The translations under genes were made by a program, and so were the position numbers. Of a DNA stretch of 64,000 nt, positions 21,702-33,463 are shown one piece after another. Origin of the DNA: Serratia nematodiphila DZ0503SBS1 (GTDB taxonomy: Bacteria; Pseudomonadota; Gammaproteobacteria; Enterobacterales; Enterobacteriaceae); NCBI RefSeq assembly GCF_000738675.1, contig NZ_JPUX01000001.1, forward strand, positions 3,410,001 through 3,474,000. The letters are read 5' to 3'. The notes under the pieces are model-generated. The model was given only the letters and a program-made list of their open reading frames with translations. It made no database searches and was not told the origin of the DNA. Numbering within the stretch: position 1 is the stretch's first letter; each line of letters opens with the position of its first letter.

Positions 21702-22556
21702 TTACAGCATGCCGCTGCTGCCGCAGATGCGGATCTTTTCCGCCACCACTTCTTTCATCGCCAGCTTGCCGGGGACGATGTATTTGCGCGGATCGTTGGC
21801 GTCCGGGTGCTGCGAAAAGTAGCTTTTTACCGCATCGGCGAAGGCGATTTTCAGTTCGGTGGCGACGTTGACCTTGCAAACGCCGAGCGAGATCGCGCGC
21901 TTGACCATTGCTTCCGGAATGCCGGAGGCGCCATGCAGCACCAACGGCACGTCCACCTGTTCGCGGATCAGCGCCAGGCGTTCGAAGTCCAGCTTCGGTT
22001 CGCCGTGGTACAGGCCGTGGGCGGAACCGATCGCCACCGCCAGTGAGTCGATGCCGGTGGCGGCGACAAACTCGCGCGCGGCGGCCGGATCGGTATAGAA
22101 GCTGTCCGCCGTATCGACGATCAAATCGTCTTCCTGCCCGCCCAGGCGACCCAGCTCCGCCTCCACGCTGGCGCCGTAGCGGTGACACAGGGCGACCGCG
22201 GCGGCCACCTTGGCGATGTTCTGTTCAAACGGCAAGTGGGAAGCGTCGATCATTACCGAGCGAATGCCGCTTTTTACCTTGTGCTCGATGTCGTCCAGTT
22301 CTTCGTGATGATCGAGATGCAGCGCCAGCGGCAGATCGTAGCGGTGCGCGGCCGATTGGCAGATGCCGATCAGGTAGTCGGTGCCGGCATAGCTGAAGGT
22401 GCCGGGCGTGCCGGCCATGATCACCGGCGAGCGCAGCTCGGCGGCGGTCTCCGCCACTACCTGCACGGTTTCCAGATTGTGGACGTTAAACGCCGGCACG
22501 GCGTAACCCTGGCGCTGCGCCTTGAGCAGCATGTCTCGGTTGGCTATCAGATACAT
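21702..22556 (-). CDS. kbaY: Class II tagatose-1,6-bisphosphate aldolase (KbaY/GatY type)
   Basis: This 284-residue zinc aldolase splits tagatose 1,6-bisphosphate to glyceraldehyde-3-phosphate and dihydroxyacetone phosphate, the last step of galactosamine or galactitol breakdown. Catalytic Asp82 and zinc ligands His83, His180 and His208 are in place. The [14 protein letters not shown] start and length match KbaY/GatY. It is the last gene of agaR-agaS-kbaY, 9 bp after agaS. No kbaZ/gatZ partner or tagatose-6-phosphate kinase is in the window, so these must be elsewhere or replaced. The context favours the galactosamine pathway over galactitol. Confidence 0.87.
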
Positions 22557-22565
22557 GGGATCTCC

Positions 22566-23732
22566 TTACAGCTCGAGGGAAGGAAAACGGTAAATCGTCA
22601 CGCCTTTCACCACCCGGTTAACCTCGCCGGTCGGGCAAGGGTTGTCCGGGGTCAGCCCCAGCGCCAGCGAACTCTCGAAGGCCAGCATCTGGCTGAACAG
22701 CAGATACGGGAACAGCAGCCAGATATCGTCAGCGGCATCGTGCATATGCAGCAGGGCATCGGCGAGAGGTTGGCGTTCGCCGGTCAACCCGACCAGCTGC
22801 ATCGCCTGCCCATCGCGCTGCAGCTCGTTCCACAGGTCGCGGTCATACTGACGGGCGTAGTCGTGGTGGGAGAACATCAGCACCACCAATGTCTGGCCGT
22901 CGACCATAAATTTCGGGCCGTGGCGCAGGCCGAGCGGCGAGTCGTAGCGCGTAACGATGCGGCCGGCGGTCAGCTCCAGCATCTTGAGCGAAGCCTCTTC
23001 GGCGAGGCCGGTAAAGCAGCTGCCGCCGAGGGTGATATAACGGCGGAAACCGCTGGCGGCCAGCGCCTTCACCTGCGGCTGCAGCGTTTCGCGCAGTGTG
23101 CGGCAGCGCTGCACCATGGCGTTCAACGGCGCCTGGGCGGCCTCAAGCGACGTTGGGCCGAGCAGCAGCGCGGCGCTCAGCATCATGCAGCTGAAGCTGG
23201 AGGTCATGGCGAAGCTCTGATCGTTGGCGCCCTGCGGCATTACCAGCGAGCAGACGTTGCCACGCTGATGCGCGTACTGCGCCAGCCGGCTGTCCGGGTT
23301 GCACACCAGCATCAGATGATAGCTTTCCGGCAGCAATTGATCGGCCAGCTCCACCGTCGCCACGCTTTCCGGGCTGTTGCCCGAACGGGCGAAGGAGACC
23401 AGCAGCGTCGGCCGGTCAGGGTCGAGATACTGCAGCGGGTTGGCGACAATATCGGTGGTGCCGTAAGCCACCACGTCGCGGCCGGTGCGTTCGCGCAGCC
23501 AGGGGGCCAGGGCGCGGCCGGCAAATGCCGAACTGCCGGCGCCGCACAGCACGATTTGCAGGCGCGGATTGGCCAGCAGCGGCGCCAGGAACGGCTGCCA
23601 CTGCGCCTGTTGATCCTGCAGTTGGCGATGCAGCGTCGCCCACAAATCCGGCTGTTGCCAAATTTCTGCGGCGGTATGCCAGGCGTTGCGCTGCTTCAGC
23701 CAATTCGTCTCGTAAGAGAAATACGCGTTCAT
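22566..23732 (-). CDS. agaS: AgaS galactosamine-6-phosphate deaminase/isomerase (SIS domains)
   Basis: This 388-residue protein with two sugar-isomerase (SIS) domains has the AgaS architecture. The first SIS domain shows LCGAGSSAFAGRALAPW and VSFARSGNSPESVATV, and the second shows YITLGGSCFTGLAEEASLKMLELTAG with SPLGLRHGPKFMVD. AgaS converts galactosamine-6-phosphate to tagatose-6-phosphate plus ammonia, feeding KbaY. The gene sits between agaR and kbaY on one strand, with gaps of 26 and 9 bp. A deacetylase (AgaA) for N-acetylgalactosamine-6-phosphate is not present nearby; chromosomal NagA could substitute, which is inference. Confidence 0.9.
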   Translation of the reverse strand: MNAYFSYETNWLKQRNAWHTAAEIWQQPDLWATLHRQLQDQQAQWQPFLAPLLANPRLQIVLCGAGSSAFAGRALAPWLRERTGRDVVAYGTTDIVANPLQYLDPDRPTLLVSFARSGNSPESVATVELADQLLPESYHLMLVCNPDSRLAQYAHQRGNVCSLVMPQGANDQSFAMTSSFSCMMLSAALLLGPTSLEAAQAPLNAMVQRCRTLRETLQPQVKALAASGFRRYITLGGSCFTGLAEEASLKMLELTAGRIVTRYDSPLGLRHGPKFMVDGQTLVVLMFSHHDYARQYDRDLWNELQRDGQAMQLVGLTGERQPLADALLHMHDAADDIWLLFPYLLFSQMLAFESSLALGLTPDNPCPTGEVNRVVKGVTIYRFPSLEL

Positions 23733-23758
23733 GATGACAGCTCCTTAAAAAGCCTCGG

Positions 23759-31465: not shown

Positions 31466-31485
31466 CTTTCACGGCCAAGTGAAAG
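31466..31485. promoter_or_regulatory. Inverted repeat CTTTCAC-N6-GTGAAAG, candidate operator
   Basis: This perfect 7-bp repeat with a 6-nt spacer lies in the divergent control region. A second TTTCG...CGAAA pair lies immediately to the left. The AgaR-like repressor is the obvious candidate ligand, but this is inference. Confidence 0.45.
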
Positions 31486-31792
31486 GCACTTCCGTTCACA
31501 TTTCATTAACCTTTTGGCGGGGTTTATCCCCGGTGGCGCGGCATTTAGCGGCCTTCGCAGGCATAGGAATAACTGATAACCCTTGCACCATAATGGGGAT
31601 TAAAAATATTTTTATTGTGCAAGCTTCAGCTTCTTTCATTTTTGTGATGCAAATAAACAAAAAAATCTTGCTGGGGCTGTCCGAGGAGGGCGCTTGAACG
31701 TTTTTTATTGCCGGCTATTGTTTGTGGCGATAAAAGACGCTAGCCTGAATCTCACAACGTTTATTCATCAAAAATAAAGAGGGCGAAATATC

Positions 31793-33463
31793 ATGCGCCT
31801 GTCTCTGGTATTTACGCATTGCCTGGAAAAAGTATTTCATCGCCAAAATATGCCGCCCATTGCCGTGGAAAATCGGCTGAGCGGGTTAAATAACGAGGTG
31901 CTGTCCTGGCAGGCGGTGTACTGTTTGCAAACTCCGGGCAACGAGACTCGCCATGAGCTGTGTTATCAACTCGACGGGCCGCTGGCGGAGTATATCAGCG
32001 TGCGCCAGGTGCAATCGGTGCCGAGCGGTTTTCCCTGTTATCGCGAGACCGATGAGAATTACCTGACCACCGAGCCGGGCTTATTTCCCGATCCGCTGAT
32101 GCCGCTGCCGCAACGGCGTTTTTTTGCCGCCTGCCGCTATTATGGCAGCCTGTGGTTGACCCTGACGCCGCCGGCCGACGCGCAACTGGCCGGCGACTTT
32201 CCGTTGACCCTGCGGCTGCTGGATGCCCAGAGCGGCGAGGCGCTGGCCGAGGCCACACTGACGCTGCATCTGGTGCCCGCGGCGTTGCCGCCGCAAACGC
32301 TGTTGCACACCGAATGGCTGCACACCGACTGCCTGGCGGATTACTACCGTTTGGCGGTGTTCAGCCCGGCGTACTGGCGCGCGGTACGCAACTTTGTGCG
32401 CTGCGCGGTGCAGGCCGGCGTCAATATGCTGCTGACGCCGCTGTTCACGCCGCCGCTGGATACCGCCGTCGGCGGCGAACGGACCACGGTACAGTTGGTG
32501 AGGGTGACACATTCGGCGCACGGGTATGGCTTCGATTTCAGCCGTTTGGCGCAGTGGGTGGCGTTGGCGCAGGAAGAGGGCATCGAGCACTTCGAAATCG
32601 CGCCGCTGTTTACCCAATGGGGCGCGGCGCATGCGCCGAAGATAGTGGTGGAGGAGCAGGGCGAGACGCGAACGCCGTTCGGCTGGCACACCGATGCGCA
32701 GGGCGAAGCGTATCAGCGTTTCCTACAGGCGCTGCTGCCGGCGTTGACCGCCTGGTTCCGCGAACGGGGGCTGGAACGGCAGGTATGGTTCCATGTTTCC
32801 GATGAGCCGACGTTGGACAACCTGGCGGCCTACCGGCGCGCCAGCGCCGCGCTGCGCCCGCTGCTGGATGGCTTCCGCACCTTCGATGCGCTGTCGGATT
32901 TCGCGTTTTATCAGCAAGGCCTGGTGGAAACCCCGGTCGTTGCGACCGACCACCTCGAACCTTTTATCGAACACCAGGTCCCCGGCCTGTGGGCCTATTA
33001 CTGCTGCGTGCAGAAGACTGAGGTCGCCAATCGCTTCTTCGCTCAGCCTTCGGCGCGCAACCGCATATTGGGCGTGCAGCTGTATCTGTACCGCATCGCC
33101 GGCTTTCTGCACTGGGGATTCAACTTCTATAACAGCGCCCATTCGCGTGAACGCATCAATCCGTACGCGGTGACCGACAGCGGCCATGCGTTTCCCTCCG
33201 GCGATCCGTTCGTGGTCTATCCCGGTGAGGATCTGCAGCCGGTGGAGTCGCTGCGCCTGCGGGTGCTGCACCAGGGTCTGCAGGACATGCGCGCACTGCA
33301 GCTGCTGGAGAGTTTGACCGATCGGGCGACGGTGGAAGCGCTTATAGAAAGTGAGCTGGGCATGCGCATCACCTTCAAGCGTTATCCGCACCAGGCCGGG
33401 CCGCTGCTGCGCCTGCGCGACGCGGTAAACCGCCGCATCGAAGCGTTGCTGGCGCCGATGTGA
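31793..33463 (+). CDS. DUF4091 glycoside hydrolase, GH123-like (beta-N-acetylgalactosaminidase candidate)
   Basis: This 556-residue protein has an N-terminal beta-rich domain (about 1-180) and a C-terminal TIM-barrel domain with the DUF4091 layout (RNRILGVQLYLYRIAGFLHWGFNFY, then GEDLQPVESLRLRVLHQGLQDMRALQLLE). The adjacent acidic pair Asp337-Glu338 in FHVSDEPTLDN corresponds to the Asp-Glu pair used by GH123 enzymes in substrate-assisted hydrolysis of beta-N-acetylgalactosaminides. No signal peptide is visible, so it should act in the cytoplasm on imported oligosaccharides. It is divergent from the importer operon. Family assignment is good; the substrate is inferred from family and neighbours. 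Confidence 0.8.
   Translation: MRLSLVFTHCLEKVFHRQNMPPIAVENRLSGLNNEVLSWQAVYCLQTPGNETRHELCYQLDGPLAEYISVRQVQSVPSGFPCYRETDENYLTTEPGLFPDPLMPLPQRRFFAACRYYGSLWLTLTPPADAQLAGDFPLTLRLLDAQSGEALAEATLTLHLVPAALPPQTLLHTEWLHTDCLADYYRLAVFSPAYWRAVRNFVRCAVQAGVNMLLTPLFTPPLDTAVGGERTTVQLVRVTHSAHGYGFDFSRLAQWVALAQEEGIEHFEIAPLFTQWGAAHAPKIVVEEQGETRTPFGWHTDAQGEAYQRFLQALLPALTAWFRERGLERQVWFHVSDEPTLDNLAAYRRASAALRPLLDGFRTFDALSDFAFYQQGLVETPVVATDHLEPFIEHQVPGLWAYYCCVQKTEVANRFFAQPSARNRILGVQLYLYRIAGFLHWGFNFYNSAHSRERINPYAVTDSGHAFPSGDPFVVYPGEDLQPVESLRLRVLHQGLQDMRALQLLESLTDRATVEALIESELGMRITFKRYPHQAGPLLRLRDAVNRRIEALLAPM

Follow-up and report, generated by a model that had tools for sequence, protein, structure and literature searches.

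A locus of ten genes at 21702–33463 of the window, a 64,000-nucleotide stretch of Serratia nematodiphila DZ0503SBS1 (contig NZ_JPUX01000001.1, positions 3,410,001 to 3,474,000), raises the question of whether it is a complete island for the use of N-acetylgalactosamine (GalNAc) oligosaccharides, as the initial annotation proposed, or one part of a larger system. We consider it probable that a GalNAc (aga) regulon is split in this genome and that the locus is its half devoted to oligosaccharide import, with further genes at a second, distant locus. The system is real and conserved, and probably co-regulated. The chemistry and the pathway are known in kind; what is new is that the regulon is split, that a module of GH123 and importer accompanies AgaR, and that an oxidoreductase of a four-cysteine subfamily is present.

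Nine of the genes lie on the minus strand (21702–31327) and one diverges from them on the plus strand (31793–33463), as first described. The family names originally given to all ten were borne out by Pfam and NCBIfam profiles. The catabolic genes, all on the minus strand, encode a tagatose-1,6-bisphosphate aldolase of the GatY/KbaY family (21702–22556; TIGR01858 481.2 bits, cut-off 443.55), the galactosamine-6-phosphate deaminase/isomerase AgaS (22566–23732; TIGR02815 539.7 bits, cut-off 529.2), the DeoR-family repressor AgaR1 (23759–24529; NF040755 384.7, cut-off 260) and an ROK sugar kinase (24863–25783; PF00480 198.4). The name KbaY held for the aldolase at the level of the family but not for KbaY proper (NF009375, 397.3 versus a cut-off of 542). 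The remaining minus-strand genes encode a Gfo/Idh/MocA oxidoreductase of a four-cysteine subfamily (25787–27088; PF01408 and PF22725) and the parts of a CUT1 ATP-binding cassette (ABC) importer: an ATPase of MalK/UgpC type (27091–28203; NF008653 456.6, cut-off 432), permeases of MalG type (28225–29043) and MalF type (29054–30010), both matching PF00528 (BPD_transp_1), and a periplasmic sugar-binding protein (30074–31327; PF01547, SBP_bac_1, 131.1) whose N terminus includes a hydrophobic segment (from residue 15, hydrophobicity 2.32). The divergent gene encodes a GH123 glycoside hydrolase (PF13320, GH123_cat, 348.8 bits, cut-off 23.1). None of the ten genes encodes an AgaA deacetylase, a tagatose-6-phosphate kinase or a GalNAc phosphotransferase system (PTS); the local lack of the first two had already been noted.

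The missing functions were found elsewhere in the genome. An EIID component of mannose/aga type occurs in two copies, one of which belongs to a second locus (L086) on contig 1 near 1.948 Mb, approximately 1.5 Mb from the island, with the genes agaR2, a KbaZ-family gene, agaV, agaW, agaE and agaF. AgaR2 scored 394.9 against NF040755 (cut-off 260) and is 75% identical to AgaR1. AgaV, the IIB component, reached 239.9 (cut-off 180) and also passed the galactosamine IIB cut-off (213.6 versus 180), and AgaW (403.6, cut-off 300) and AgaF (205.5, cut-off 130) were likewise above their equivalog cut-offs; AgaE fell below its own (427.7 versus 500), though the AgaE model was its best match. The KbaZ-family protein passed the TIGR02810 agaZ_gatZ model (681.6, cut-off 568.8), and its gene is present in one copy genome-wide. 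Conversely, AgaS and the aldolase each exceed their cut-offs once in the whole genome, inside the window (next matches 30.2 and 85 bits, respectively). A single NagA-family match lies above the cut-off (545.5 bits, contig 2); its neighbors appear NagB-like and NagC-like, as judged from their first residues only. NagA can replace AgaA in E. coli (PMC3668189), and the deacetylase absent from the island is probably this NagA. PfkB-family kinases gave 13 matches in the genome, none in the island and one, a weak match (32.1 bits), in the window at approximately 37144–37467. The island is therefore not complete, with its KbaZ-family subunit and its deacetylase encoded elsewhere, and the idea of an ABC route in place of a PTS is not supported for a genome that has AgaR2, the KbaZ-family subunit and AgaVWEF at the second locus.

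The flux that we propose would begin with the binding protein and the CUT1 importer taking up short beta-GalNAc-ended glycans in unphosphorylated form, which remains the likeliest role of the importer, as was originally suggested, in a genome where GalNAc pathway genes are present. The GH123 enzyme would free GalNAc from the imported glycan in the cytoplasm, and the ROK protein, a proposed GalNAc kinase, would convert it to GalNAc-6-phosphate. After deacetylation by NagA, AgaS would convert galactosamine-6-phosphate to tagatose-6-phosphate, an enzyme presumably of phosphofructokinase type would add the second phosphate, and the aldolase of the window, together with the distant KbaZ-family subunit, would cleave the tagatose bisphosphate. 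Free GalNAc would be taken up by the AgaVWEF PTS, encoded at the second locus, and would join the route at GalNAc-6-phosphate, so that AgaS and the aldolase would serve both routes. AgaR1, and presumably its paralog AgaR2, would keep both loci off by means of CTTTC-based palindromes. If this is correct, a sugar pathway works across two distant loci through a shared operator.

Common control of the two island promoters, which the initial annotation had supposed, is probable because they share a 25-bp palindrome. The predicted AgaR operator CTTTCGGTTG-N5-CAACCGAAAG (24705–24729, no strand) lies between the kinase and agaR genes, and a second, operator-like palindrome, GTTTCGTTG-N7-AATCGAAAG (31440–31464, no strand), lies in the divergent promoter between the binding protein and GH123 genes, with two mismatches to the pattern used here, CTTTCRNTT-N7-AANYGAAAG. 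The first is the only exact match in the 5.2-Mb genome. With at most two mismatches there were four places, namely these two and two on contig 2, and with at most three mismatches the window held three matches where 0.21 were expected, the third lying outside the island at 47799. The motif CTTTC/GAAAG occurred seven times in 465 bases and five times in 333 bases in the two island promoter regions, or 15 per kb, whereas the window as a whole has 1.95 per kb. When 2000 random sequences with matching dinucleotide composition were drawn, 0.1% and 0.15% of them, respectively, had as many. The gap between ogt and the aldolase gene gave three in 827 bases (P 0.40). A further block, ATTTCAGTGTTTCGTTTGCTGTAAT (24625–24649, minus strand), found by blastn of promoter against promoter, is common to the agaR1 and agaR2 promoters with two one-base gaps: 24 of 27 columns are identical (E 2e-4, in a small search space). 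Its agaR2 version is conserved in each of the 20 Serratia loci examined out of 22 matches; a single locus shows one mismatch.

An exact match to the palindrome pattern is present in 17 of the 20 enterobacterial loci having both the kinase and agaR genes (the exceptions are L021, L022 and L024), and its arms change in pairs between species. Alignment shows a recognizable copy of the divergent-promoter palindrome in the loci of Serratia, Brenneria, Rouxiella and Cedecea, but not at that place in the two Pantoea loci. This arrangement was not found in print in a literature search at the level of titles and abstract beginnings; a 2012 J Biol Chem study of proteobacterial aga regulons by Leyn lies outside that scope. 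Its abstract reportedly names CTTTC as a common AgaR motif, which would agree with the CTTTC density of the island promoters, and the study may mention a Serratia locus. In E. coli, AgaR binds palindromic sites upstream of the genes that it controls (PMC4694137).

Some of the evidence weighs against the proposed regulation and pathway. The backward-read control pattern gave eight genome matches compared with four for the pattern itself, so matches with mismatches are by themselves little proof. In the agaR2 promoter the CTTTC/GAAAG count was not significant (three in 189 bases, P 0.098), and its palindrome has three mismatches; 0.06 such matches were expected in 13 kb, and 11 of 200 shuffles had one. 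Shewanella AgaR motifs were reported to be completely unlike those of E. coli (PMC3223726); likeness of motifs across genera is therefore not a given. The KbaZ-family protein stayed below the cut-offs for KbaZ (607.4 versus 707) and for GatZ (559.5 versus 579). For the closest solved relatives of the binding protein, the ligands are cycloalternan, maltose and other sugars; the weaker relatives include one that binds chitin oligosaccharides, and none is known to bind GalNAc glycans. Its predicted structure (predicted local distance difference test, pLDDT, 67.8) matched general sugar-binding proteins, best the cycloalternan-binding 5f7v, and the match list gave no GalNAc-type lead. For the kinase, the family assignment in the initial annotation stood, with the N-acetylglucosamine (GlcNAc) kinase 7p7i as the closest solved relative (240.6 bits), but the score was below the NagK equivalog cut-off (274.8 versus 380) and gives no direct support for GalNAc. 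Finally, no outer-membrane channel or secreted enzyme is encoded among the island genes.

Residues 11–550 of the GH123 enzyme align to 8k2l at 510.4 bits and residues 72–545 to 8k2n at 436.7 bits; both structures are named monosaccharide-releasing beta-N-acetylgalactosaminidase and are presumably the NgaP2 and NgaLy enzymes described by Sumida in 2024 (PMC11087588). NgaP2 numbering fits the 8k2l chain with an offset of 3. The catalytic DE pair is D337–E338, and in the alignment the NgaP2 sugar contacts W196, D244, W298 and F489 correspond to W175, D223, W276 and F467 of the Serratia enzyme; the fifth contact, position 297, is Q275, and all five contact positions are conserved. PMC11087588 prints D297 for NgaP2, whereas, with the numbering offset to which the remaining four contacts conform, this position is Q in the 8k2l chain. 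No strongly hydrophobic stretch is seen at the N terminus (highest mean over 12 residues 1.08, compared with 2.32 in the binding protein), and the enzyme is therefore likely to be cytoplasmic, in agreement with the initial annotation. Judged from sequence, it is likeliest to release terminal beta-GalNAc as a Group 4 exo-beta-N-acetylgalactosaminidase. NgaP2 is also weakly active (4.7%) on the p-nitrophenyl (pNP) substrate GlcNAc-beta-pNP (PMC11087588). The chemistry of GH123 Group 4 is known but few of its biological roles are, and for a member that neighbors a GalNAc repressor and would be served by a dedicated importer, a role becomes testable.

To place the island among its relatives, the best 80 of 180 confirmed GH123 loci were kept. 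Twenty-two of these are enterobacterial (L005–L026), two of which (L015 and L017) do not reach far enough to reveal genes other than those for the binding protein and GH123. They include L021, which is labeled Chryseobacterium and has an enterobacterial island with GH123 at 63% identity; the label or the binning is probably wrong. Within the family, a GH123 match was found in 13 of 392 genomes (in one, a 62-residue piece only) and 5 of 154 genera, and named Serratia relatives reached 96% GH123 identity. Eleven of the 12 Serratia-labeled loci have a relative of each of the ten genes with gene order unchanged, which exceeds chance. In the remaining one (L025), agaS and agaR are separated by a gap as in Rouxiella, and its aldolase would fall beyond the stretch covered. 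The Brenneria, Rouxiella, Cedecea and Pantoea loci retain the importer, kinase, AgaR and GH123 genes, with changes. Among the other 20 enterobacterial loci, 17 carry an oxidoreductase ortholog of at least 76% identity; against the proposed system, the gene is absent from Brenneria 4F2 (L014), and both Pantoea loci hold no more than a 25% relative. Megablast gave no copy of 30074–33463 in E. coli genomes. In Pantoea L022, positions 1–3521 hold an extra divergent DeoR-type regulator and another oxidoreductase without the cysteine motif, and a KbaZ-like frame is visible, by look only, at the edge of the locus.

These loci also bear on what the importer carries. Free GalNAc or galactosamine could be the real cargo of the importer and the real substrate of the ROK kinase, which would then complement the PTS with high affinity and leave GH123 to act on stray glycosides only. 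A precedent is found in bifidobacteria, where the ABC importer NgcABCD beside nagKAB is predicted to replace PTS uptake of GlcNAc (PMC5583593). We regard this as improbable: the GH123 and binding protein genes share a divergent promoter region in every one of the 22 enterobacterial loci, with the palindrome recognizable in the aligned ones except Pantoea, and outside these bacteria GH123 adjoins a substrate-binding protein–permease–permease set, following it in L037 and L040 and preceding it in L063; these make up three of four listed loci of this kind. By hand count, 26 of the 58 non-enterobacterial loci have a MalG-like permease in the stretch.

Somewhat less probable still is that the real substrate is a chondroitin-type fragment, GalNAc-beta-1,4-glucuronic acid (GlcA), in place of a ganglio-, Sda- or LacdiNAc-type glycan. 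The locus of Paenibacillus cremeus (L043), which resembles a chondroitin-type locus, combines GH123 with a 32% oxidoreductase relative, a SIS protein, an aldolase, a PfkB kinase, a family 8 polysaccharide lyase and a sulfatase in approximately 17 kb. However, L043 is the only one of the 58 non-enterobacterial loci with relatives of the aldolase (49%) and AgaS (23%), and the island genes include no lyase, sulfatase or uronidase. NgaBf and NgaLy favor GalNAc-beta-1,4-galactose over GalNAc-beta-1,3-galactose in the sections of PMC11087588 considered, with GlcA linkages outside those sections.

The proposal that the island is self-contained and PTS-independent, standing in for a classical aga locus, can draw on the presence of kinase, deaminase and aldolase together with the importer, but it is very doubtful and, for the genome of the window, largely refuted, with AgaVWEF, AgaR2, the KbaZ-family gene and the deacetylase all outside the island. 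Among 30 Serratia genomes, GH123 was found in 19 and a KbaZ relative in 22 (21 at 89% identity or more, and G762 at 58%), and all 19 were among the 22, an overlap with a chance probability of 2.8e-5 when kinship is ignored. The proposal fits other hosts better: in Rouxiella L016 a KbaZ-family gene sits between agaR and agaS, and a gap at this place occurs in L018, L019, L021, L023 and L025, so the islands of those hosts appear nearer to being self-contained.

The split aga regulon is also consistent with a natural deletion in Serratia genome G378, which has the KbaZ-family gene but no GH123. In this genome, 340 kb was read where its relatives predict the island. The agaS (388 amino acids) and aldolase (284 amino acids) genes are retained as open frames between an acyltransferase gene and ogt, whereas agaR1 is largely missing and so is the whole stretch from the kinase gene through GH123. 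An intergenic stretch (L136, 601–1320) matches window positions 23694–23809, 24487–24904 and 33451–33611, that is, remnants of agaR1, the kinase gene and GH123, and these remnants at both ends point to loss. An exact match to the palindrome pattern persists upstream of agaS, with the agaR1 remnant in between. At the PTS locus, agaR2, the KbaZ-family gene, agaV and agaW are full length or nearly so at 97–100% identity, and the stretch ends in agaE. The deletion, which lost the add-on and kept the core, fits a model in which the PTS route depends on AgaS and the aldolase of the island, and in which AgaR2 may act at the island operator. The evidence comes from this one genome, with G783 and G762, the other Serratia genomes that have a KbaZ relative but no GH123, left out at the island site.

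Four cysteines of the oxidoreductase (C243, C246, C252 and C296) are invariant in all ten aligned members, which suggests that they form a metal site; the Pantoea relative does not have the motif. A search of 369 genomes of the class returned only the protein of the window at 1e-50, whereas tblastn found relatives in 26 plasmid records, the best at 55.4% in Deinococcus, and seven of the 26 plasmid neighborhoods were opened. On two Deinococcus plasmids (L143 and L144) the gene overlaps a GH4 gene in a galactosamine-type cluster with sugar ABC permeases and a binding protein, a BadF-type kinase, a SIS protein, a class II aldolase and a PfkB kinase; the L143 cluster also has a GH114 polygalactosaminidase. 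In Thermus the relative adjoins GH4, in Thermomicrobium it adjoins a SIS protein gene, with nagA next, and in two Streptomyces and one Paenibacillus it adjoins a sugar ABC importer. The combination of importer, kinase, deaminase, aldolase and oxidoreductase is therefore not confined to Serratia, and the oxidoreductase points to an enzymatic step shared by amino-sugar clusters from phyla that are not related. The predicted structure (mean pLDDT 61.3) was too low in confidence for a fold search. We speculate, while considering it unlikely, that the protein is an undescribed NAD-dependent enzyme for galactosaminide linkages that ordinary hydrolases cannot process, such as alpha-linked galactosamine, acting alone or as a redox partner of GH4. 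GH109 enzymes, which have the same fold, carry out such processing alone. If this were so, the operon would combine hydrolytic cleavage of beta-GalNAc by GH123 with a redox-based chemistry for other linkages, a device that would recur with GH4 and GH114 in Deinococcus.

The arrangement shares parts with several known systems. In lacto-N-biose and galacto-N-biose, galactose is the terminal residue. The GnbPTS/GnbG and LnbABC systems, which serve these sugars, resemble the Serratia route in importing an amino-sugar disaccharide and cleaving it inside the cell to feed GalNAc catabolism (PMC5583593), but the Serratia substrate would have terminal GalNAc. The aga/gam system of E. coli has the same AgaR, AgaS and tagatose-bisphosphate aldolase, with counterparts of its KbaZ-family subunit and AgaVWEF at the second Serratia locus. 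In E. coli C the 13 aga/gam genes form one cluster (PMC3668189), whereas the Serratia set is divided between two loci approximately 1.5 Mb apart, with two AgaR paralogs and no agaA in the cluster, and adds the ABC importer, ROK kinase, oxidoreductase and GH123 on the agaS–aldolase side. The island is thus not an aga cluster of E. coli type, with the PTS genes at the second locus and the NagA-family gene on contig 2. Uptake without phosphorylation followed by a cytoplasmic GalNAc kinase, in place of a PTS, is also described for Shewanella AgaP–AgaK, but there a permease and an outer-membrane protein are used, in contrast to the CUT1 ABC importer and glycosidase of Serratia (PMC2996990); the Shewanella gene list in that source includes 'agaO'. 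The characterized Group 4 enzymes NgaP2, NgaLy, NgaBf and NgaBl share with the Serratia protein the similarity over residues 11–550, the DE pair and the sugar contacts. The Serratia member differs in belonging to an importer operon with AgaR; in the main text of PMC11087588 the word 'transporter' does not occur, and Serratia appears in a reference only.

Outside this system, a 103-amino-acid reading frame with a signal-peptide-like start lies on the minus strand at approximately 21085–21396, between ogt and the aldolase gene.

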